Shown here in pieces: positions 6,940 to 17,184 of a stretch of DNA of 60,211 bases. Numbering within the stretch: the first letter of the stretch is position 1; every line of letters starts with the position of its first letter. The notes under the pieces were generated by a model. It was not told where the DNA came from, searched no databases, and was given only the letters and a program-made list of their open reading frames with translations. Origin of the DNA: Pseudomonas sp. KBW05 (GTDB lineage: Bacteria; Pseudomonadota; Gammaproteobacteria; Pseudomonadales; Pseudomonadaceae); NCBI RefSeq assembly GCF_003852405.1, contig NZ_QAJM01000003.1, forward strand, positions 266,387-326,597, given 5' to 3'. Position numbers and translations under genes: made by a program.

Positions 6940-8139
6940 ATGTCGCTTAATGCCAAACCACTTGCCGGCCTGAAAGTCATCGAACTGGGCACCCTGATCG
7001 CCGGCCCGTTTGCCTCGCGTATCTGCGCCGAGTTCGGTGCCGAGGTGATCAAGGTCGAATCCCCAGACGGCGGCGACCCGCTGCGCAAATGGCGCAAGTT
7101 GTATGAAGGCACTTCGCTGTGGTGGTTTGTGCAGGCGCGCAACAAAAAATCGCTGACGCTGAACCTCAAGCACCCGGACGGCCTGGCCATCCTCAAGCAG
7201 TTGCTGGCGGATGCCGACATCCTGATCGAGAACTTTCGCCCCGGCGTGCTGGAAAAACTCGGTTTGAGTTGGGAGACGCTGCACGCACTGAACCCGAAGC
7301 TGGTGATGGTGCGCCTGTCGGGGTTCGGCCAGACCGGGCCGATGAAGGACCAGCCGGGGTTTGGCGCGGTGGGTGAATCCATGGGCGGGCTGCGCTATAT
7401 CACCGGTTTCGAGGACCGCCCGCCCGTGCGCACCGGGATCTCCATCGGCGACTCGATTGCCGCGCTGTGGGCGGTAATCGGCGCGCTGATGGCCCTGCGG
7501 CATCGCGAGGTCAACGGCGGATTGGGCCAGGTGGTGGATGTGGCGTTGTATGAAGCCATCTTCGCCATGATGGAAAGCATGATTCCCGAGTTCGACGTGT
7601 TCGGGTTTATCCGCGAGCGAACTGGCAACATCATGCCCGGGATCACGCCGTCGTCGATCCACACCAGCGCCGACGGCAAGCATGTGCAGATCGGCGCCAA
7701 CGGGGATGCGATCTTCAAGCGCTTCATGCTCGCCATCGGGCGCGAAGACCTGGCCAACGACCCGGCACTGGCCAGCAATGACGGGCGCGATAGCCGTCGT
7801 GATGAGCTGTACGGCGTGATTGATCGCTGGGTCAGTTCATTGCCGCTGGAGCAGGTGGTCGAGGCCTTGAATAAAGCCGAAGTGCCCGCCAGCCGGATCT
7901 ACAGTGCCGAAGACATGCTGGGCGACCCGCAATTTCTCGCCCGGGAAATGTTCCTCAAGGCGCAACTGCCCGGCGGCAAGGACTTCAAGATGCCCGGCAT
8001 CGTGCCCAAGCTGTCGGACACCCCGGGCAGCTGCGAGTGGGTGGGCCCGCAGTTGGGTGAGCACAATGGCGTGCTGCTGGAGAGCCTGGGTTACGACTCC
8101 GCCGCCATTGCCCGTTTGCGTGAGGAAGGCGCGATCTGA
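6940..8139 (+). CDS. Class III CoA-transferase (CaiB/BaiF family)
   Basis: 399 residues. The family moves CoA from an acyl-CoA donor to a carboxylic acid acceptor through an aspartyl-CoA intermediate. The N-terminus LAGLKVIELGTLIAGPFASR and the RLSGFGQTGPM segment are hallmarks, and the nucleophile is most likely the Asp of SIGDSIAAL near residue 170. The substrate cannot be told from the sequence. ATG at 6940 is preferred over an in-frame upstream start at 6922 because AAGGA lies just before it at a normal distance. Its stop overlaps the start of the next gene (TGATG). It begins divergently from yaeQ. Confidence 0.88.
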   Translation: MSLNAKPLAGLKVIELGTLIAGPFASRICAEFGAEVIKVESPDGGDPLRKWRKLYEGTSLWWFVQARNKKSLTLNLKHPDGLAILKQLLADADILIENFRPGVLEKLGLSWETLHALNPKLVMVRLSGFGQTGPMKDQPGFGAVGESMGGLRYITGFEDRPPVRTGISIGDSIAALWAVIGALMALRHREVNGGLGQVVDVALYEAIFAMMESMIPEFDVFGFIRERTGNIMPGITPSSIHTSADGKHVQIGANGDAIFKRFMLAIGREDLANDPALASNDGRDSRRDELYGVIDRWVSSLPLEQVVEALNKAEVPASRIYSAEDMLGDPQFLAREMFLKAQLPGGKDFKMPGIVPKLSDTPGSCEWVGPQLGEHNGVLLESLGYDSAAIARLREEGAI

Positions 8140-9026
8140 TGGTGCTTCGGTGCAAACGCGGGTGGGTGCAGTTCTGCCTTGTCGCCTCGATGCTCAGCGG
8201 CTGGCCTCTGTCGGCCCACGCCAGCGAGACGTTGACCTGGTTGTTGCGCGACCTGCCACCGCTGACCATTTTCGAGGGGCCGCGCAAAGGCCAGGGCGCA
8301 CTGGACCAACTGTTACCGATCCTCATCGAACACCTGCCGGACTATCAACATCAGGTCCTGCACGTCAATCGCGCGCGCGGCATACAGATGATGCGCGAGC
8401 CAACAACGCTTACCTGCGATCCCTCATTGCTGTGGACGGCGGAGCGAGCCAAATACATCGTGTTCTCCAGCCAGGCATTTGTGGTCGCCAGCAACGGCAT
8501 CATGATCCGGCATAGCCAGGAGGACACGATGGCGCCCTATATCGTCGATGGCCAGTTTGACCTGCAAGCCTTTTTCGATGCCCCTAAAGCACGGGCGGGC
8601 GCCATCGCCGAACGCAGCTACGGGCCGGTCGTCGATCAACAACTCAAGCTGGCCGATGCGCATAAGCTCGCCCTTCATTACGGCAACGATGCCCTGGGCA
8701 GCCTCCTGCAAATGCAACGCCTGGGGCGACTGGAGGCGGTGTTGGGGTATTGGCCGGAAATCCGCTATCACGCCATGCAACAGGGCATCCCGGCTGCGGA
8801 CCTGAGCTTTTATCCGATCAAAGGCTCAGCGCCCTACCAACGCACCCATATCGGTTGCTCGGATACGCCTCGTGGGCGTCAGATCATTCAACGCATCAAT
8901 CAGGTGCTGCTGGACATCCCACTGGAACAGGTGCAGCAGTCCTACGCTTCATGGCTGGACCCGGTGATGCGCGAGCATTATCTGCGGGATAACCCAAGCT
9001 TCTTCCAGGATTCGCCAGAGCCCTGA
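8139..9026 (+). CDS. Periplasmic solute-binding-like protein (TIGR02285-type)
   Basis: 295 residues with an N-terminal signal peptide (hydrophobic stretch about 10-24, cleavage after AHA). The rest resembles family 3 extracellular solute-binding proteins of the TIGR02285 type: WLLRDLPPLTIFEG near the start, a LTCDPSLLWTAERAKYIVFS segment, and a C-terminal lobe that closes with the PVMREHYL region. No permease or ATPase is nearby, so it may act as a receptor or a stand-alone binder. Translation is coupled to the CoA-transferase gene by a one-base overlap, which is an unusual partnership. The ligand is unknown. Confidence 0.7.
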   Translation: MVLRCKRGWVQFCLVASMLSGWPLSAHASETLTWLLRDLPPLTIFEGPRKGQGALDQLLPILIEHLPDYQHQVLHVNRARGIQMMREPTTLTCDPSLLWTAERAKYIVFSSQAFVVASNGIMIRHSQEDTMAPYIVDGQFDLQAFFDAPKARAGAIAERSYGPVVDQQLKLADAHKLALHYGNDALGSLLQMQRLGRLEAVLGYWPEIRYHAMQQGIPAADLSFYPIKGSAPYQRTHIGCSDTPRGRQIIQRINQVLLDIPLEQVQQSYASWLDPVMREHYLRDNPSFFQDSPEP

Positions 9027-9196: not shown

Positions 9197-9481
9197 TCAT
9201 GCAGCGGCGGCGCTGCGGGTCTGGGCAGCGTTGCGCAACGCCGCAATGACCGAGGGTTCCAGACGCCCTTCGGCAATCTTGATGTCACGCAGCAGGCAAT
9301 CCACCACATCCACCAGCACGCGTTTATCCATCAACTGTGCGCGGTCCACTTCTCGCTCGACCATGATGGCGCCAGCAGGGTTCTTCACGGTGACCAGGCA
9401 CTCGTCCTGCACACCGGAGGTGGTCAGCGTAACCTGATAAGGGCTCAGTGCTTCTTCGAGCAATAGGCTGATACTTTCCAT
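9197..9481 (-). CDS. DUF3509 domain-containing protein
   Basis: 94 residues from MESISLLLEEALSPYQ, which I take as the start; the frame continues four codons upstream to a GTG. The protein matches the small DUF3509 family found mainly in Pseudomonas, with the DECLVTVKN and the RVLVDVVDCLLRDIKIAEG segments. No signal peptide, membrane segment or catalytic motif is visible and the function is not known. A 3' UTR of about 120 bases and a strong terminator follow. It is monocistronic. Confidence 0.75.
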   Translation of the reverse strand: MESISLLLEEALSPYQVTLTTSGVQDECLVTVKNPAGAIMVEREVDRAQLMDKRVLVDVVDCLLRDIKIAEGRLEPSVIAALRNAAQTRSAAAA

Positions 9482-9712
9482 CTCGATCACCACTCAATAG
9501 TTCAGGAACAATCGGTTCAACGGGAGCTGCATCTATCCTAAGTGACTGTTTGTGACGTAGGAAAGTTCGCTTTATCGTCTTTATGGGGCCGTCAGGGGTG
9601 ACGGATTCCAGCATGCGCTTGCAACATGACAAGCAAAAAACGGCGCACATAAATGCTTACGCAATGGGCGACTGTTTTGCGGTTTGCCGACGGCTCGGAT
9701 CAGAGGTGAATC

Positions 9713-9719
9713 CTATACT
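9713..9719 (+). promoter_or_regulatory. Candidate sigma-S type -10 element
   Basis: CTATACT at 9713-9719 matches the extended -10 preferred by RpoS, with no convincing -35 box upstream. It stands about 75 bases before the small membrane-protein gene at 9794, pointing at it. The rest of 9482-9793 is relatively A/T rich and shows no other feature that I can support. Confidence 0.4.
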
Positions 9720-9793
9720 CGGTGAGCGCTGGAGACGCGGCTACGCAGATGAAAGCGCATGTCAAAAGGCCCTTATTGCGAAGGATGAAGACG

Positions 9794-9994
9794 ATGTTGG
9801 AACACGACAAAGAGCAGGCAGCATTAGAGAAGATTCATGCTGACATATCACGCATCTATGCGGAGCAACGCAAACTCAACGCCGAAGCACACAAGATAAC
9901 CCGTGAAAATTTCTGGTATCCCTTGGGTGTCGTCATGGCTATGTTTACAGTTTTCACCAGTGTTGTGGCCCTGGCAGTAAAAATACTCGCATAG
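9794..9994 (+). CDS. Small membrane protein of unknown function
   Basis: 66 residues. The first ~40 residues are charged and helical (MLEHDKEQAALEKIHADISR, AEQRKLNAEAHK), likely an amphipathic or coiled-coil helix. One membrane segment follows (YPLGVVMAMFTVFTSVVALAVKIL). I do not recognise a named family; similar small hypothetical proteins exist in pseudomonads. ATG at 9794 is chosen because AAGGA lies eight bases before it at 9781-9785. In-frame starts exist at 9722 and 9785 but lack a good binding site. It stands alone between a candidate sigma-S promoter and a terminator, which suggests a stress-induced single gene. Confidence 0.6.
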   Translation: MLEHDKEQAALEKIHADISRIYAEQRKLNAEAHKITRENFWYPLGVVMAMFTVFTSVVALAVKILA

Positions 9995-10032
9995 CTCATT
10001 CGCGCCGCCCGGGCCTGCCAAAAACAAAAAAC

Positions 10033-10066
10033 GCCGCTAACCCAAGGAAGGCAAAGCGGCATTTTT
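10033..10066 (+). terminator. Rho-independent terminator
   Basis: The stem GCCGCT (10033-10038) / AGCGGC (10055-10060) is followed by ATTTTT. It lies 39 bases after the small membrane-protein gene and separates it from the NarL-type regulator. A-rich sequence on the other side gives it some bidirectional character. Confidence 0.75.
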
Positions 10067-10143
10067 GTGCACCGTTAAAACCCTACGTTCAACCATCCCA
10101 GGGTTAACAGGCTAGAATCCCCGAATTGCCCGGGGAACCTATC

Positions 10144-10797
10144 TTGAGAAGCGCACCTGAAAAACCCTTGCGCATCATCCTGGCCGACGACCATCCGATT
10201 TTCCTGATTGGTCTGCGGGCGGTCCTGGAGCGCGATGAACAACTGGAAATTGTCGGCGAAGCCAACTCTCCCCAATCCCTGACCCAATTGCTGCAACACT
10301 GCGCCTGCGACCTGTTGATCACCGACTTCATGATGCCTGACGAACCCCAGGCCGACGGGTTGCGCCTGATCGACCAACTGCGCCGCCATCACCCGACGCT
10401 GCCCATCGTCGTGGTGACCATGCTCAACAATGCAGGGTTGTTTCACGCCATCCTGGAGCTGGGTGTCATGGGCTTGCTGAGCAAAGCCAGCCTCGCGAAT
10501 GAACTGCCTGAAGCCGTCCGCCAGGTACGCCAGCAGCGCTGCTATGTGGCCCACACCATTCGCCAGGCGCTGAGCGCGCTGGGCACTGATCGATTGCAGT
10601 CCCACGAGCAGCTATCGCCCCGCGAGCTGGAGGTGATTCGCCTGCTGGCGAGAGGGCTGACCGTGGGCGAAATCGCGGCACATCTGCATCGCAGCAAGCA
10701 GACCGTCAGCGCGCAAAAAGTCAGCGCCATGCGCAAGCTCGGGCTCAGTACCGACGCGTCACTGTTTATCTACGTGCAGGAGCATGGGTTGGCCTGA
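10144..10797 (+). CDS. NarL/LuxR-type response regulator (RocA/BvgA-like)
   Basis: 217-residue cytoplasmic DNA-binding response regulator. The receiver domain (about residues 8-125) has the acidic pair in LADDHPIF, the phospho-acceptor Asp in LLITDFMMPDE and the conserved Lys in LLSKAS. The C-terminal LuxR-type helix-turn-helix spans LSPRELEVIRLLARGLTVGE through AMRKLGL. TTG at 10144 is preferred because GGGGA stands seven bases before it; an upstream TTG at 10126 is in frame but lacks this. It is convergent with the EAL-protein gene and their coding 3' ends overlap by 32 bp. With the neighbours it forms a BvgAS/RocSAR-like set, so it is probably phosphorylated by the Hpt domain of the large kinase. 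Target genes are unknown. Confidence 0.88.
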   Translation: MRSAPEKPLRIILADDHPIFLIGLRAVLERDEQLEIVGEANSPQSLTQLLQHCACDLLITDFMMPDEPQADGLRLIDQLRRHHPTLPIVVVTMLNNAGLFHAILELGVMGLLSKASLANELPEAVRQVRQQRCYVAHTIRQALSALGTDRLQSHEQLSPRELEVIRLLARGLTVGEIAAHLHRSKQTVSAQKVSAMRKLGLSTDASLFIYVQEHGLA

Positions 10798-12010
10798 CCT
10801 GGCTGCCGATCCACGCTTTCAATGCCTGAGCGTCCATCGGTGGTGCAATCAGGCAACCTTGCAGCCAGGCTGGGCCCAGCAAAGCGACCGCATCACGATC
10901 GGCAGGGGTTTCGATTCCCGTCACCACCACGTTCATGCCCATGCGGCTGGCCATGCTCATGGCGCCCGCGACGACAGCCACTTTGCGCTCATCACCGGCC
11001 ATGCCACAGGCAAAGGCCGGGGGTATTTTCAGCTCAGTGAACGGCAGCTCCAGCAAACGCTGCAAACTGGTGCCGCCGATACCGAAGTCACCGATAGACA
11101 ACTTGCAACCGATCATCCTTAAACGCAGCAAGCTGCTGACATGCGCGCTGTCGGTGTTCAATCGCGTGGTTTCGACCAACTCCAGCGTCAGGCTATGGGC
11201 TGGCACGGCGTGGCGTTGCAGCAGGCGTTGCAGCGCCTGGGGAAAATGCGCATGTTCGAGCATCCGCCCGGGAATGTTCACCGCCACCGGCAAGATCTCC
11301 CCCGTGTCCCACGCGATCTGGCTGACAAAGCCCAGGGCCTCTTCCAGCACATGCCAGGTAAACGCCTCCTCCATGCCGGCAAACTCCAGCACCGGCAGGA
11401 ACTCATGGGGCAGTAACACTCCCCCGTCAGGCAGATACCAGCGCGCCAGCACCTCAACGCCCTGCAATACACCTGCCTGGCAAACGATAGGCTGGAAACT
11501 CGCGCTGGCGTAACGCGCGATGGCCACCTGACAGGCATCCACCGAAGGTGGCAACTCATCCAGCTCATTCAAGCCCAGCAGTTGGCGCACCTTATCCCAG
11601 GACACGACCTGCGGCCCCGGACGCAAATGTTGCAGGCAAGCCGTCAGCAGTTGCCCAACCAACTGCGCCGAGGCTGGCTTGGGCAAGCACCGGAGGACAT
11701 TCAGCCCAGCCTGGCGCGCCATGCTGGCGACCCCTTCCAATACGTCAGGTTGAGCACTGCTTAACAGGATCAGCACCTGAGCCTGGCGCAGTTCGCCCAA
11801 TTCGCGAATCAGTTCAAGGGCATCGCCCTGTTCCAGATAGAGGTCGCAAATGGCAATGTCCACCGGCCCCTTGCTCGCCAACGACTGCCGGGCGGCCTCT
11901 ACGGTTTCGGCGGTTATTACATTGAAGACACCGTTGGCATTGAGCATCTGGTGCAGGGCCATCAGTTGGAATGGGTGATCTTCGAGGATCAAGACATTGA
12001 GGGAGCGCAT
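10766..12010 (-). CDS. REC-EAL protein (RocR-like) with degenerate EAL active site
   Basis: 414 residues: receiver domain (about 1-125, phospho-acceptor D56, Lys111), linker, and an EAL domain (about 155-405). In P. aeruginosa RocR is a phosphorylation-controlled c-di-GMP phosphodiesterase that competes with RocA for phosphate from RocS. Aligned by eye with a constant offset of 12 for all but the first residue (offset 11), the RocR metal and catalytic residues map here to E186 (motif EVL), N245, E277, G307, D308, K328, T364, E367 and Q384. The equivalents of RocR D295 and E352 are thus Gly and Thr. Since these are essential in RocR, catalysis is probably lost, while binding or phosphate acceptance may remain. 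It lies 73 bp downstream of the kinase gene on the same strand. Confidence 0.85.
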   Translation of the reverse strand: MRSLNVLILEDHPFQLMALHQMLNANGVFNVITAETVEAARQSLASKGPVDIAICDLYLEQGDALELIRELGELRQAQVLILLSSAQPDVLEGVASMARQAGLNVLRCLPKPASAQLVGQLLTACLQHLRPGPQVVSWDKVRQLLGLNELDELPPSVDACQVAIARYASASFQPIVCQAGVLQGVEVLARWYLPDGGVLLPHEFLPVLEFAGMEEAFTWHVLEEALGFVSQIAWDTGEILPVAVNIPGRMLEHAHFPQALQRLLQRHAVPAHSLTLELVETTRLNTDSAHVSSLLRLRMIGCKLSIGDFGIGGTSLQRLLELPFTELKIPPAFACGMAGDERKVAVVAGAMSMASRMGMNVVVTGIETPADRDAVALLGPAWLQGCLIAPPMDAQALKAWIGSQVRPTHAPARR

Positions 12011-12083
12011 GGCAAACTCTGAGACGCAGAAGCAAGGTTGCGCAGGCTACGCAAAAGGTCATGCGCGCCCCATAGGACGCGTC

Positions 12084-15000
12084 CTATTCTTGCGGACTCA
12101 AATGGGTGCCCAGCTCAACCCTGAATGCTGCCAGCGCTTCATTCAGCACGCGCCACAGCGCTTCAACCTCGTCAATGCGCTGCTCACGCAGGCAGCCCTC
12201 AAGCCCCACACACGCCTTGGCCAGCGGCAGCGCATCCACCAGGCAGCAAATCCCCTTGAGGCGATGCAACGAGGCCATTACCCCTGGAAAGTCCTGACAC
12301 GCCAACGCCGTCTTGATCCCATCGTGCTCTTGTTCAAGACTCTTCGCCAACTCCTCCAACATGCGCTGCAGGACCGGCCCATCGGCCTGGGTCATCACCT
12401 GCAAGGTCTGGATATTGAAGGTGCGCAATGGGGCCAAGCGGGTGAGGACCGTGGCCCACTGCTCAAGGGTCACCGGTTTGACCAACAACTCATCCATTCC
12501 CGACGCCAGGCAACGCTGACGCTCATCCTCCATGGCATTGGCGGTGCACCCCACCAGCGCAGTGCGCGATCGTTGCTCTTGGGTTTCAATACCGCGCACG
12601 GCTTCGCTCAAGGCGTAGCCGGACATGCCCGGCATATTGCAATCCGTCACCAGCACGTCAAAGGCGTCATCGCGCCAGCGCTGCAAGGCCAACTCCGCCG
12701 AGTCGAAGGCCACCACCCGGTGGCCGAGGAATTGCAGTTGCTGAGCCAGCACCAGGCGGTTGGCCGGCAAGTCATCGACGATCAGCACCGACAAACGGCG
12801 ACCGGCAGCCGGCAGGACCGCCGCAGGCTCAGTTGGCCTGTCGTCGCCTCTGACCCGCTGCAGATACAGGTCAATGCAAATCGTCGTGCCCTCACCTGCC
12901 GCGCTGCTCAGGGAGATCGTGCCGCCCATCAACTCCACCAGTTGTTGGCAAATGCTCAAGCCCAAGCCGGTCCCGCCATGTTGAGCCGCCGTCAGCGGGC
13001 TGACCTGGACAAACGGCTTGAACACCCGAGCCTGTTGTTCAACACCAATCCCTGGCCCGCTGTCTTCGACACACAGGTGTAGGTATTCAGCCCCGGCGTC
13101 ATCGCGCTGAGTCACCACGCTGAGGCGGACCTCACCCTGCTCGGTAAACTTCAACGCATTGCCCACCAGGTTATGCATGACCTGCCGCAAGCGCAGCGGG
13201 TCGAACCAATAATCCCCTTGCGCCGCTGGGTCGAACGCCAGGGTCAAACCCAGGCCTTTTTTACTCGCCGTCGCCGCAAACAGCCGCTGGATGCCGTCGA
13301 AAAAAACCTTCAGGTCTGTGGTCTGCGGCACCAGTTGCAAATGGCCTGCTTCGATCTTGGCCAGGTCCAGGCTATCGCCCATCAACTCAATCAGCTCACG
13401 TGCGGAGCGATGCGCCACCTGCAAGGCTTCGGAGACGCGCTTGCCCTCAGCCAGGGCGCGTTCTTGTTCCAACTCAAGCAGGCCGATGATGGCGGTCATC
13501 GGGGTGCGAATTTCATGACTGAGGGTTGAGAGAAACGCACTTTTTGCGTAGTTCGCGTCATCGGCGGCCTGGCGTGCGTCCATCAACTGATGCTCCAGGA
13601 CTTTGCGCTCATTGATGTCGATCCAGCCGCCCAGCAGCCCCTGCAATTGGCCGCGCGCATCGAAAAACGGCACCGTCCATTGGTAAACGTGGAAAGTCCC
13701 GCCGTTGAACTCCAGTTGCCGATCAACAAACAACGATTGCTGTGTCGCCAACTGCTCCATGTGCCCGGCATGCAGGCGCGCGGCCGTGGCCTCTGGCAGC
13801 ACGCCGCTTTCCATCAAGGTCAGGCCCTGGATCAGCTCCCGTCGGGTGGCCAACTGCTGTTCGTAACGGGTGTTACACGTCACCAACCGGCCGGCCAGGT
13901 CCCGTACGAAGACCGGGTTGGGCATGCCATCCAGCAGGGCACGCTTAAAGGCCAACTGATCGCTCAACCGTTGCTCGGCCACCAGGCGCTGCTGGATCTG
14001 CCGCTTGAGCCGGCTATTCCAGACCAACGACACCAATACACACAACAGCGCCATGGCAACCGTCCAATAGGCCCATGGCGGCACACGTTGCCAAGCCGAC
14101 GTCGGGATCGGCACCGTGCCCAGCCAGCGCAAACGCAACGCGCTCAACTCTGCCACCGGCATCGCTTCCAAGGCCTTGTTCACAATGCTCAACAGCTCGG
14201 GCTGGTCCTTGCGTACCACCAGGCTGTTGGACGACCACTTGCCCTCCACGCTGCGCCCGATGCGCAAGCCGTCGGACGGGTAGCTCTGCACCTCCACTTC
14301 ATTCTGGATCGTCGCCGCCGCATGCCCCTGGATCACCTGCTCACGGGCCTGGGTATAGTTATCGACGGCGAGAATCTCGATGTCCGGGTGTTCACGGCGA
14401 ATGAAATTCTCCAGCACATGCCGGGCCGGCAACGCCAAGACCTGGCCAGAGAGCTCACTCAAACTGGCCACTAACGGCGTGTCGCTGCGCTGGACAAACA
14501 CCCAACCGGCGCCGCCAAAACCATGGCTGAAATCCAGGAATTGCCTGCGCTCCCGATTCTCCGCCAGCGTGGTGTTCATATCCGCCCTGCCCGCTGCCAG
14601 TAACTCCAGGGTCTGCGCGGTGGAAGACACCTCCTCCATCACGAACTGCAAGCCGGTCATGCGGGAAATCCGGTTAAGCAGATCGACGTTCAAGCCGACC
14701 CATTGACCGTCCTTGTCCTTGAAGATGTACGGCGACTGTTGCTGGGACACCACCACCACATGGGGATGGTGCAACAACCAGGCTTGCTCCTGGGCCGACA
14801 ACACAATGCGGTCGGCGGCGATGCCCACTCCCAGGCCGGTGGTCCAGCGCGCGAGGATTTCACGTTGTATCGACTCGTCGATACTCGCCAGCGCCCGGTC
14901 CATCATGTCCCCCAACAGCGGGTCGGCCGTACGGGAAGCAAAGGCAAAGCCAATCGGCGCCAGCCGGCTCTCCACGTTGATCTGCAAACCGAGGTAAGGA

Positions 15001-15665
15001 CGCAGTGACTTGTAGGCCCGCACAATCACTTCATTGCCGATAAAGGCGTCGGCATCCCCCTGGTTCAACGCTTCCAGGCCACTGTAGAGGTTCGGAGCCA
15101 GCATGATATGGCTGGCGGGATAGGCCCGATGCACGTTGCCGACATTGGCATAGCCCTCCAGCAAGACCACCTTCTTGCCCTCAAGGCCTTCGTTCTGCGT
15201 GGTGTCGTCGCGACGCACGACGACTACCGAACGATCCGGCATGTAGTCGCGAGTAAACCGCAACCCAGGCACATCCCGCTCATAGCCGTTGGCGCTGGTC
15301 AGAATATCGATGGCGCCACTGCGCAAGGCTTCCACCGCTTGCGCCCGCTCAGCGAAGCCCATCACCTGCATAGGCACATCGAGGCGCGCGCCGACCAGGC
15401 TCAGGTAGTCGGCGCTGATGCCTTGGTAGCGATTGTGGTCACGGGTGATATCGATCGGCTGGTAGTCATCAATGGAAATGCCGACCTTCAGCGTTCGATG
15501 GCTCGCCAGCCATTGCTGCTCGCCGGCCGTCAGCGGCAAGGGCGCCAGCGGGGTGAACGCCGGCACCAGTTTGAACGGCAGGCTGACGGCGGCCAGGCTT
15601 GCCGGGGATTGACCAAGCAAGAGCAAACACAGCAGCCACACGCACCTTCGGCTCAATAAACGCAC
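12084..15665 (-). CDS. Unorthodox hybrid sensor kinase (BvgS/EvgS/RocS-like)
   Basis: 1193-residue inner-membrane sensor. Order of domains: signal peptide (1-25), two periplasmic Venus-flytrap SBP_bac_3 domains (about 50-280 and 290-520), one membrane helix (about 536-556), a PAS domain (about 590-690), HisKA with LSHEIRTPM, HATPase with NALKFT, DSGPGIG and GGTGLGLSI, a receiver with VTDCNMPGMSG, and a C-terminal Hpt with HRLKG. All phosphorelay residues are present, so a His-Asp-His-Asp relay to the two separate receivers is expected. The start is GTG at 15665, with GAGAGG upstream at a somewhat long spacing. The ligand of the periplasmic modules is unknown. The gene is first in an operon with the RocR-like gene. 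Confidence 0.92.
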   Translation of the reverse strand: MRLLSRRCVWLLCLLLLGQSPASLAAVSLPFKLVPAFTPLAPLPLTAGEQQWLASHRTLKVGISIDDYQPIDITRDHNRYQGISADYLSLVGARLDVPMQVMGFAERAQAVEALRSGAIDILTSANGYERDVPGLRFTRDYMPDRSVVVVRRDDTTQNEGLEGKKVVLLEGYANVGNVHRAYPASHIMLAPNLYSGLEALNQGDADAFIGNEVIVRAYKSLRPYLGLQINVESRLAPIGFAFASRTADPLLGDMMDRALASIDESIQREILARWTTGLGVGIAADRIVLSAQEQAWLLHHPHVVVVSQQQSPYIFKDKDGQWVGLNVDLLNRISRMTGLQFVMEEVSSTAQTLELLAAGRADMNTTLAENRERRQFLDFSHGFGGAGWVFVQRSDTPLVASLSELSGQVLALPARHVLENFIRREHPDIEILAVDNYTQAREQVIQGHAAATIQNEVEVQSYPSDGLRIGRSVEGKWSSNSLVVRKDQPELLSIVNKALEAMPVAELSALRLRWLGTVPIPTSAWQRVPPWAYWTVAMALLCVLVSLVWNSRLKRQIQQRLVAEQRLSDQLAFKRALLDGMPNPVFVRDLAGRLVTCNTRYEQQLATRRELIQGLTLMESGVLPEATAARLHAGHMEQLATQQSLFVDRQLEFNGGTFHVYQWTVPFFDARGQLQGLLGGWIDINERKVLEHQLMDARQAADDANYAKSAFLSTLSHEIRTPMTAIIGLLELEQERALAEGKRVSEALQVAHRSARELIELMGDSLDLAKIEAGHLQLVPQTTDLKVFFDGIQRLFAATASKKGLGLTLAFDPAAQGDYWFDPLRLRQVMHNLVGNALKFTEQGEVRLSVVTQRDDAGAEYLHLCVEDSGPGIGVEQQARVFKPFVQVSPLTAAQHGGTGLGLSICQQLVELMGGTISLSSAAGEGTTICIDLYLQRVRGDDRPTEPAAVLPAAGRRLSVLIVDDLPANRLVLAQQLQFLGHRVVAFDSAELALQRWRDDAFDVLVTDCNMPGMSGYALSEAVRGIETQEQRSRTALVGCTANAMEDERQRCLASGMDELLVKPVTLEQWATVLTRLAPLRTFNIQTLQVMTQADGPVLQRMLEELAKSLEQEHDGIKTALACQDFPGVMASLHRLKGICCLVDALPLAKACVGLEGCLREQRIDEVEALWRVLNEALAAFRVELGTHLSPQE

Positions 15666-15724
15666 CGGGTTGGTTTCCTCTCTTTTTTAGTCGATTGCCC
15701 ACTGGAGTATGGCGTGCCCCAATG

Positions 15725-15750
15725 AAAAAGCCCGTCACGAAGACGGGCTT
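15725..15750 (-). terminator. Rho-independent terminator of hom-thrC
   Basis: The stem AGCCCGTC / GACGGGCT (15729-15736 and 15742-15749) has a five-base loop and is followed on the minus strand by a T-run. It lies 25 bases after the thrC stop and insulates the sensor kinase gene from it. Confidence 0.88.
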
Positions 15751-15774
15751 GAGCAACCTCGCAAAGCCGTTGAA

Positions 15775-17184
15775 TCAGAGCGGCTTGCCACGATTGCCGT
15801 GCTGGCTCACAAACGCCTGCACGGCTTTCAGATCATTGGCCAACACGGTGCAACGCTCTTCACGCTCAAACAGGTCTGCCAAATGCGCTGGCAATTCCAG
15901 TGCCTTGCCAACACCGGCCTTCTCCACCGCTTCCGGGAATTTGACCGGGTGCGCGGTGCCGAGGATCACCATCGGGATGTCCAGGCTGCGACGGCATTCG
16001 CGGGCGGCCTTCACACCGATAGCGGTGTGTGGGTCCAGCAACTCGCCAGTCTGGGCGTAGACTTCGGCGATGGTTTCGCAGGTTTCTGCGTCGTCCACGG
16101 CCAAGGAGTCGAACAGCTTGCGGGTTTCAGTCCAGCGCTCTTCTTCAACGCTGAAACCGCCACCGCTCTTGAAGGTGTCCATCAAGCCGGCAATCGCCGC
16201 GCCGTTGCGCCCGTGCATGTCGAACAGCAGGCGTTCGAAGTTCGACGAGACCATGATGTCCATCGACGGCGACAGCGTGGCGTGCAGGGTTTCCTTGACG
16301 TACCTGTTGCCGCTCATGAAGCGGTGCAGGATGTCGTTGCGGTTGGTGGCAACAATCAACTGGTTGATCGGCAAGCCCATGTTGCGCGCCAGGTAGCCGG
16401 CGAAGATGTCGCCGAAGTTGCCGGTCGGCACCGAGAACGACACCGAACGCGCCGGCCCGCCCAACTGCAGCGATGCATGGAAGTAGTAGACGATCTGGGC
16501 CATGATCCGCGCCCAGTTGATCGAGTTCACCGCTACCAGACGCGTGCCTTTGAGGAAGCTCTGGTCAGCGAAGCTGTTCTTGACCATTTCCTGGCAGTCA
16601 TCGAAGTTGCCTTCGATGGCGATGTTGTGGATGTTCTCGCCAAAGATGGTGGTCATCTGGCGACGCTGCACTTCCGACACACGCTGGTGCGGGTGCAGGA
16701 TGAAGATGTCGACGTTTTCGCAGTGCTTGCAGCCTTCGATGGCGGCCGAACCGGTATCACCGGAGGTTGCACCGATGATCACCACACGCTCGCCGCGCTT
16801 TTGCAGCACGTAGTCCAGCAGGCGACCCAGCAGTTGCAGGGCGAAGTCCTTGAACGCCAGGGTCGGGCCGTGGAACAGTTCCAGCACCCACTCGTTGCCG
16901 TTCAGTTGGCGCAATGGTGCGATGGCGCTGTGGGAAAACACGCCGTAGGTCTCTTCGAGGATCTTCTTGAAATCCGCATCCGGGATGCTGCCGGTGACGA
17001 ACGGGCGCATCACCCGGAACGCCAGCTCGTGGTACGGCAGGCCGGCCCAGGACGCGATTTCTTCCTGGGTGAAGCGTGGCAGGTTTTCCGGCACGTACAG
17101 GCCGCCGTCGGTGGCAAGGCCTGCCAGCAGGACGTCTTCGAAATTCAGGGCCGGTGCCTGGCCGCGGGTGCTGATGTAACGCAT
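15775..17184 (-). CDS. thrC: Threonine synthase
   Basis: 469 residues. A PLP-dependent enzyme that converts O-phosphohomoserine to threonine. The PLP lysine sits in PTLAFKDFALQ, and the phosphate-binding glycine-rich loop region includes GATSGDTGSAAIEG. The start MRYISTRGQAPALNFEDVLL is the family start and has GAGGAG just upstream; an in-frame start 14 codons earlier is not supported. It follows hom by 67 bp on the same strand and completes the last steps from aspartate semialdehyde to threonine. Confidence 0.97.
   Translation of the reverse strand: MRYISTRGQAPALNFEDVLLAGLATDGGLYVPENLPRFTQEEIASWAGLPYHELAFRVMRPFVTGSIPDADFKKILEETYGVFSHSAIAPLRQLNGNEWVLELFHGPTLAFKDFALQLLGRLLDYVLQKRGERVVIIGATSGDTGSAAIEGCKHCENVDIFILHPHQRVSEVQRRQMTTIFGENIHNIAIEGNFDDCQEMVKNSFADQSFLKGTRLVAVNSINWARIMAQIVYYFHASLQLGGPARSVSFSVPTGNFGDIFAGYLARNMGLPINQLIVATNRNDILHRFMSGNRYVKETLHATLSPSMDIMVSSNFERLLFDMHGRNGAAIAGLMDTFKSGGGFSVEEERWTETRKLFDSLAVDDAETCETIAEVYAQTGELLDPHTAIGVKAARECRRSLDIPMVILGTAHPVKFPEAVEKAGVGKALELPAHLADLFEREERCTVLANDLKAVQAFVSQHGNRGKPL

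Follow-up and report, generated by a model that had tools for sequence, protein, structure and literature searches.

A degenerate EAL domain under purifying selection in a REC-EAL response regulator encoded beside a BvgS-like kinase in Pseudomonas

Introduction

The protein described here most resembles RocR of Pseudomonas aeruginosa, which is associated with RocS1 and RocA1. RocR is reported to be an active phosphodiesterase, and its gene set includes an unorthodox kinase with SBP and PAS domains and a NarL-type regulator (PMC12051241). The roc1 set has a rocR-rocS1 operon and, in divergent orientation to it, rocA1 (PMC12051241). The metal ligands of RocR are E175, N233, E265, D295, D296, and E352 (PMC7911125), and Asp302 and Asp303 are metal ligands in BlrP1 (PMC3989770). 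Erosion of a Roc locus was reported in 2025 for P. aeruginosa and P. paraeruginosa, together with a degenerate RocR homologue (PMC12051241). This homologue is RocR3 of P. paraeruginosa IHMA87 and P. aeruginosa clade 4, in which an essential Glu, one of seven essential residues, is replaced by Thr, loop 6 is changed, and no kinase gene adjoins (PMC12051241). Overproduction of RocR3 still antagonises cupB/cupC, by a mechanism stated there in 2025 as to be determined (PMC12051241).

Two other systems are relevant for comparison. In P. syringae B728a, a BvgS-like kinase is encoded beside a PvrR/VieA-like regulator in the same direction, with a NarL-like gene next in number (PSYR1292-PSYR1293-PSYR1294; PMC2222644, 2007). 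In Vibrio cholerae, VieB is a receiver protein that has no enzyme activity of its own and is encoded with the kinase that it modulates (PMC4352251). It blocks both autophosphorylation of VieS and phosphotransfer under the control of its own Asp, and the D62E form is a weaker inhibitor (PMC4352251). More generally, pseudo-receivers and pseudo-histidine kinases are a known topic (PMC12632262). In our searches, no open-access title or abstract start beyond PMC12051241 and PMC2222644 described a pseudo-RocR clade or an EAL-less series.

Results

The locus in the window

The window is the whole stretch of DNA analysed, 60,211 nucleotides from Pseudomonas sp. KBW05, the genome of which (6.5 Mb) is of the same genus as the genome sample searched. 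The features of interest are:

10126 to 10797, plus strand: NarL/RcsB-type DNA-binding response regulator, 223 aa (Pfam/NCBIfam)
10766 to 10797, no strand assigned: 32 nt shared by the NarL-type and REC-EAL genes, which overlap at their 3' ends (open reading frame coordinates)
10766 to 12010, minus strand: REC-EAL response regulator with a degenerate EAL, RocR/VieA/PvrR type, 414 aa (open reading frame, Pfam, best PDB match RocR 3sy8)
10838 to 11503, minus strand: EAL domain, aa 170-391, with codons for G307 at 11090-11092, P330 at 11021-11023, and T364 at 10919-10921 (Pfam, alignment)
11636 to 12010, minus strand: receiver (REC) domain, aa 1-125, with the D56 codon at 11843-11845 and D11, S84, and K111 retained (alignment)
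12084 to 15665, minus strand: unorthodox BvgS/EvgS-like hybrid kinase, 1193 aa, with SBP_bac_3 (two stretches), PAS, HisKA, HATPase, REC, and Hpt (Pfam/NCBIfam)

The kinase gene lies upstream of the REC-EAL gene on the same strand, separated from it by 73 nt, and motifs for the phospho-acceptor His, the Asp, and the Hpt His can be read in the 1193-aa sequence. The NarL-type gene is convergent with the REC-EAL gene. Where relatives have this gene it is likewise tail-to-tail to the REC gene, often overlapping it. The arrangement of roc1, a rocR-rocS operon with a divergent rocA, was not found at the window locus, which begins with the kinase gene and has its NarL-type gene in convergent orientation. 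We take the outer neighbours to be thrC and hom on one side and CoA-transferase, yaeQ, and recJ genes on the other; on the latter side Pfam also finds a DUF3509 gene. A sigma-70 promoter scan of 9400-15900 returned 0 sites. Near the system, at 8139-9026 on the plus strand, the window encodes a 295-aa protein whose opening motif is like that of proteins at the same place in relatives; this protein had no Pfam match at E 0.001.

Pfam places PF00072 (Response_reg) at aa 6-114 with 42 bits and PF00563 (EAL) at aa 170-391 with 176.8 bits, both above cut-off. These were the only matches in the 414-aa protein at E ≤0.001, so that no TPR output region was found by Pfam. The closest solved relative is RocR (3sy8; E 1.1e-47 by phmmer against PDB sequences), and a fold search with the AlphaFold model again gave 3sy8 as the top match. 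RocR thus shares both the REC-EAL architecture and the fold. The model has a mean pLDDT of 85.1 and is weak at the linker and at loop 6, with a mean of 61 for the low-confidence block 311-320. Its EAL superimposes on c-di-GMP-bound 3n3t_B with a TM score of 0.88 (target length) and an rmsd of 1.9, indicating that the fold is retained. Against the PvrR equivalog NF052596 (NCBIfam) the protein scores 201.2 bits, below the curated cut-off of 580 bits. Measured against the VieA/RocR/PvrR type, it has the REC and EAL architecture and the receiver pocket but lacks the catalytic EAL residues (D295G, E352T, and D318P). The nearest named relatives, with 80 of 158 loci kept in the REC-EAL search, are from Pseudomonas sp. 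CBZ-4 (95%), P. canadensis (92%), and P. reactans (91%).

The comparison set

A receiver-only query in the same genus sample matched at least 146 of the 399 genomes (E 1e-15 or better), and among the matches listed there were many stand-alone receivers, whose open frames measure roughly 138-236 aa. From the matches listed we took 60 stand-alone REC places with flanks, of which three (L252-L254) were later excluded as another REC family. These three are a second stand-alone receiver type that starts with KHKL or NHKL, and the kinase adjoining it is 32-34% identical to that of the window. Also excluded were L025-L054, which have short flanks and many of which have named copies inside the set, and the outgroup L105-L114. 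After 24 identical entries were dropped from 188, 164 non-identical rows remained, covering REC-EAL proteins and stand-alone RECs.

Of the 164 rows, 161 carry one or more of five flanking genes that belong to a single locus (hom-thrC to yaeQ). The other three (L095, L178, and L251) have none of the five, so either they lie elsewhere or their neighbourhood has been altered. The rows are species-level genomes and are not independent events, and the thrC tree used to count changes below is a quick FastTree of 160 rows.

Loss of catalytic residues

The initial annotation, made from the letters alone, aligned the RocR residues with the window protein and reported seven as conserved and two as lost. 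The same mapping was obtained with phmmer and with two MAFFT runs, one of which included RocR and 90 loci; this agreement rules out an annotation or alignment error as the source of the lost residues. The list of essential RocR residues itself was taken from later papers and general background. By MAFFT the conserved pairs are E175=E186, N233=N245, E265=E277, D296=D308, K316=K328, E355=E367, and Q372=Q384. The lost ones are D295=G307 and E352=T364, encoded by GGT and ACG on the minus strand. No other acidic residue takes either place in a proper alignment, where Gly and Thr stand.

Two further changes had been missed. RocR D318, which we take to be a position with a role in catalysis, is P330 in the window protein; Asp is found at this position in 23 of the 24 EAL domains of the source genome and in 11/11 canonical REC-EALs. 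In loop 6, RocR Y301 is replaced by G and S302 by T in 28/28 clade rows. RocR itself keeps D295, E352, and D318. We assume that Asp302 and Asp303 of BlrP1 correspond to RocR D295 and D296.

Within the source genome, D295, D296, and E352 are all retained in 22 of 24 EAL domains, the exceptions being the REC-EAL protein and L022. With these three residues kept in 22 of 24 domains of the same genome, the loss of residues in the REC-EAL protein is more than chance. L022 has a Lys in the EAL motif and Gln-Arg in place of the Asp pair, a pattern that presumably resembles LapD. Another domain of this genome, L014, has Ser at RocR N233 and Ala at E355. The reverse case is seen in an outgroup paralogue, L111, with canonical EAL residues and a receiver that has E at 11 and N at 56.

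Because the metal-ligand positions D295 and E352 are absent, hydrolysis of c-di-GMP is not expected, and judged by its residues the REC-EAL protein is very probably catalytically dead. It could instead be an active or weakly active phosphodiesterase with an altered metal site, given that the equivalents of the seven residues listed above are all kept. However, the RocR metal ligands D295 and E352 (PMC7911125) are now Gly and Thr, and D318 and loop 6 are changed as well, which makes activity a very improbable explanation.

RocR3 shows a similar change of an essential Glu to Thr together with loop-6 changes. This Glu is presumably RocR E352, RocR3 being compared here by its description rather than by sequence. 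The window protein differs in that it has also lost D295 and D318, and in that its kinase is intact.

The loss is shared by a clade

Among 104 REC-EAL rows the D295/D296/E352 triad is lost in 46 and kept in 58. A Gly at 295 occurs in 42 rows, from the P. fluorescens, protegens, chlororaphis, gingeri, and fuscovaginae groups, and E352 in these 42 rows is replaced by T, A, S, G, or C (T, S, G, or C in ten gingeri-group rows). When a tree of 103 REC-EAL rows was rooted with canonical REC-EALs, the G-at-295 rows fell into one clade of 39 (SH-aLRT 93). Its members come from the P. fluorescens, gessardii, chlororaphis, and protegens groups and from P. gingeri, fuscovaginae, and agarici, and include the long-branched L104; three more G rows (L055-L057) are outside this tree. 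It had been asked of the initial mapping whether G307 and T364 are fixed in a clade. In the nearest 28 rows G307 is, whereas T364 varies (23 T and 5 A). Together, these data show that loss of the triad is clade-wide and no accident of one genome.

The P. syringae and putida-like rows retain D295, D296, and E352. The 58 triad-intact relatives are not fully canonical, as 56 of them have P, one has A, and one has S at position 318, so that their activity is uncertain too. A separate decay is seen in L098-L101, where DG or EC replaces DD. In these four rows no kinase or NarL-type gene was found at the locus, and their EAL dN/dS is raised (0.28). A single loss of the triad would fit the one G clade on the REC-EAL tree, yet on the thrC tree at least three changes between triad-intact and degenerate are needed among the REC-EAL rows. 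L098-L101 uses one of the three, so the G rows need more than one. The alternative is a discordance in the thrC tree or in how one of the genes was inherited.

The arrangement of PSYR1292-1294 is shared by the P. syringae-group rows, and from this arrangement it appears to be the same locus as that of the window. The difference is that the P. syringae-group rows keep D295 and E352. In two rows of this group, L171 and L085, the kinase and REC-EAL are present and no NarL-type gene was found downstream.

Selection on the EAL and conservation of its pocket

Comparison of dN/dS (NG86) between the two domains, which the initial annotation had suggested, gave the following values; dS is near saturation in the wider groups, and the values for the orphan and window groups come from 5 and 6 pairs, respectively.

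Window group of four: REC 0.093, EAL 0.092
All 28 clade rows: REC 0.119, EAL 0.190
Gingeri group: REC 0.113, EAL 0.241
P. syringae group (triad intact): REC 0.141, EAL 0.149
Putida-like (triad intact): REC 0.130, EAL 0.153
Orphan group L098-L101: REC 0.132, EAL 0.281

The EAL is therefore under purifying selection in the nearest 28 rows. These values indicate that the pseudo-EAL of the window clade is maintained, with clade-wide constraint slightly looser than in triad-intact EALs and looser still in the gingeri and orphan groups. Free decay of the EAL as a pseudogene is ruled out by dN/dS in the window clade.

Ten other pocket positions (RocR 161, 175, 177, 179, 233, 265, 296, 316, 355, and 372), picked from cited lists and general background, are invariant in 28/28 nearest rows. 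As a comparison, the EAL background in the same rows has a mean column conservation of 0.82 with 39% of columns invariant. Some of the ten positions are metal or water ligands, and their conservation could thus be structural. In the gingeri/fuscovaginae branch, which has the same G, N233 is kept in 4/10 rows and E355 in 6/10, suggesting that ligand binding is not required everywhere.

The pattern expected of degenerate EAL receptors, metal ligands lost and the substrate-side pocket kept, is found in 28/28 nearest rows, and in this the window protein is like receptors of the LapD/FimX type. We take LapD and FimX to have lost metal-ligand and kept substrate-side residues in the same way; they are not known to be REC-EAL regulators paired with an Hpt kinase. 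The c-di-GMP binding that the initial annotation had raised as a possibility is favoured, indirectly, by the ten invariant positions, and we regard binding by the pseudo-EAL of the window clade as a possibility just short of evenly balanced.

The receiver pocket and the adjacent kinase

The receiver retains D11, D56, S84, and K111, in line with the D56 and conserved Lys first noted. All four residues are present in 91/91 rows in which the REC-EAL gene is accompanied by a full kinase and a NarL-type regulator. An intact pocket is found in 103/104 rows with an EAL frame (the lone exception is L095, with D11N) and in 46/46 with a degenerate EAL. With two metal ligands lost and this pocket intact, the initial proposal of a pseudo-enzyme that would still accept phosphate is well supported by inference, and phosphorylation by the neighbouring kinase is likely.

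Among the 160 rows of the thrC tree, an intact pocket occurs in 97/99 rows with the kinase core and 17/61 without, and in 101/101 rows with the EAL frame and 13/59 without. Once relatedness was allowed for, neither link was significant (five supported independent pairs and a median p of 1 for the kinase core; six pairs and a median p of 0.5 for the EAL frame). We therefore use the pocket counts as a trend and not as proof of phosphotransfer. Likewise, the idea that receiver decay is driven by loss of the kinase core has strong raw counts but obtains no support from the independent-pair test.

A kinase core lies upstream of the REC gene on the same strand in 100/164 rows, and a NarL-type gene is present in 99/164. 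A degenerate EAL might act through a new protein partner in the style of BluF or FimX, unrelated to the NarL-type regulator. Known degenerate EALs do act through protein contacts (PMC3509220, PMC3989770), and REC-EAL occurs without kinase and regulator at the same locus in L160, L166, L098-L101, and L104. Both the kinase and the NarL-type regulator nevertheless adjoin REC-EAL in 91 of 104 rows (92 counting one cut by a contig edge), and we consider an unrelated partner improbable.

A natural deletion series

The 164 rows comprise 104 with REC-EAL, 58 with REC only, and 2 whose frame breaks no later than the EAL start. By gene content they are:

Sensor, kinase core, Hpt, REC-EAL, and NarL-type gene: 91 rows
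The same set without the NarL-type gene: 2 rows
Full set, sensor not found near a contig edge: 1 row
Kinase-less sensor and REC-EAL: 1 row
REC-EAL alone: 9 rows
Full kinase and NarL-type gene, EAL cut by a stop or frameshift: 2 rows (L184 and L102)
Full kinase and NarL-type gene, REC only: 4 rows (L103, L206, L249, and L250)
Kinase-less sensor and REC only: 48 rows
REC only: 5 rows
REC only and NarL-type gene: 1 row

The two broken copies are each from a single genome, and sequencing error is possible. On the thrC tree, EAL presence changes at least five times without the broken rows and seven times counting them as absent; the kinase core and the NarL-type gene each change at least eight times. 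At 125-166 aa, each of the REC-only and broken frames is long enough for a whole or nearly whole receiver. L103 belongs to the gingeri group on the thrC tree; it has lost any match to EAL, and its NarL-type match reaches to 33 nt past the REC stop. In L249 and L250, residue 56 is Glu and residue 111 is Thr, which may amount to a fixed phospho-mimic.

This series bears on whether the pseudo-EAL matters at all. The receiver alone could act, as a pure phosphate sink or kinase modulator, with the pseudo-EAL a passive remnant that is being lost. The 58 REC-only rows and two broken ones, the repeated changes in EAL presence, the four REC-only rows with full kinase and regulator, and the higher EAL dN/dS in the gingeri branch (0.24) and in orphan L098-L101 all point that way. 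By contrast, an EAL as constrained as the receiver in the nearest four rows and a pocket invariant in 28 rows are unexpected for a remnant, and we regard the passive-remnant explanation as rather unlikely. An absent or broken EAL beside an intact kinase and regulator (4 and 2 rows) fits a phosphate sink and, equally, a VieB-like kinase inhibitor. VieB differs from the window protein in having a TPR region (PMC4352251) and no EAL fold.

A working model

The reading towards which we lean somewhat is that the REC-EAL protein has no catalytic activity, can be phosphorylated, and modulates the adjacent BvgS-like kinase, with the pseudo-EAL as a probable c-di-GMP-binding module. The Hpt of the kinase would phosphorylate the receiver, and the EAL half, without the D295 and E352 metal ligands, would not hydrolyse c-di-GMP. 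Through phosphate competition or kinase inhibition, the protein would modulate what the convergent NarL-type regulator receives from the kinase, with RocR3 and VieB as precedents; we judge the case for such modulation of kinase output to be evenly balanced. A pseudo-EAL under selection with an otherwise complete pocket points to probable c-di-GMP binding and tuning. In the window clade the pseudo-EAL would bind c-di-GMP and the cellular level of this ligand would tune the modulation, while in other lineages the tuning layer would have decayed or been deleted, leaving the receiver.

The locus in P. syringae (PMC2222644, 2007, if the identity given above holds) and a degenerate RocR homologue (PMC12051241, 2025) were already known. 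As far as our searches show, a clade-wide selected pseudo-EAL, repeated EAL losses at one locus, and a kinase-less sensor and receiver pair are new within the literature searched. One conserved locus thus offers a graded series, from a triad-intact EAL through a selected pseudo-EAL, a decayed EAL, and a receiver only to a receiver with a kinase-less sensor. With this natural series, roles of RocR and RocR3 beyond c-di-GMP hydrolysis become directly testable by comparing orthologues.

Receivers beside a kinase-less sensor

The kinase-less sensor rows are L196-L203 and L207-L247 except L233, each with the stand-alone receiver adjacent. In two examples searched with Pfam the sensor consists of SBP_bac_3 and PAS, and its frame ends just past the PAS. 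No EAL, NarL-type gene, or kinase core was found at the locus in the 48 rows of kinase-less sensor plus receiver. As a lead, this pair of sensor and receiver without a kinase core is more novel than the dead REC-EAL. We tentatively suggest, as a less likely view, that the receiver is the conserved business end of the locus. A REC-EAL enzyme would have become a phospho-controlled pseudo-enzyme in the window and a lone receiver elsewhere. In 48/164 rows it would be a receiver beside a kinase-less transmembrane SBP-PAS sensor, both under purifying selection and signalling without a kinase of their own.

The pocket is lost in 40 of the 48 kinase-less REC-only rows and kept in eight; the 40 have a conserved sensor beside a pseudo-receiver. 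The changes in the 40 rows are D11 to P or H, S84 to G, K111 to T (37 rows) or S (2 rows), and D56 to N (nine rows). In this 40-row subgroup (39 used), dN/dS is 0.10 for the sensor and 0.21 for the receiver.
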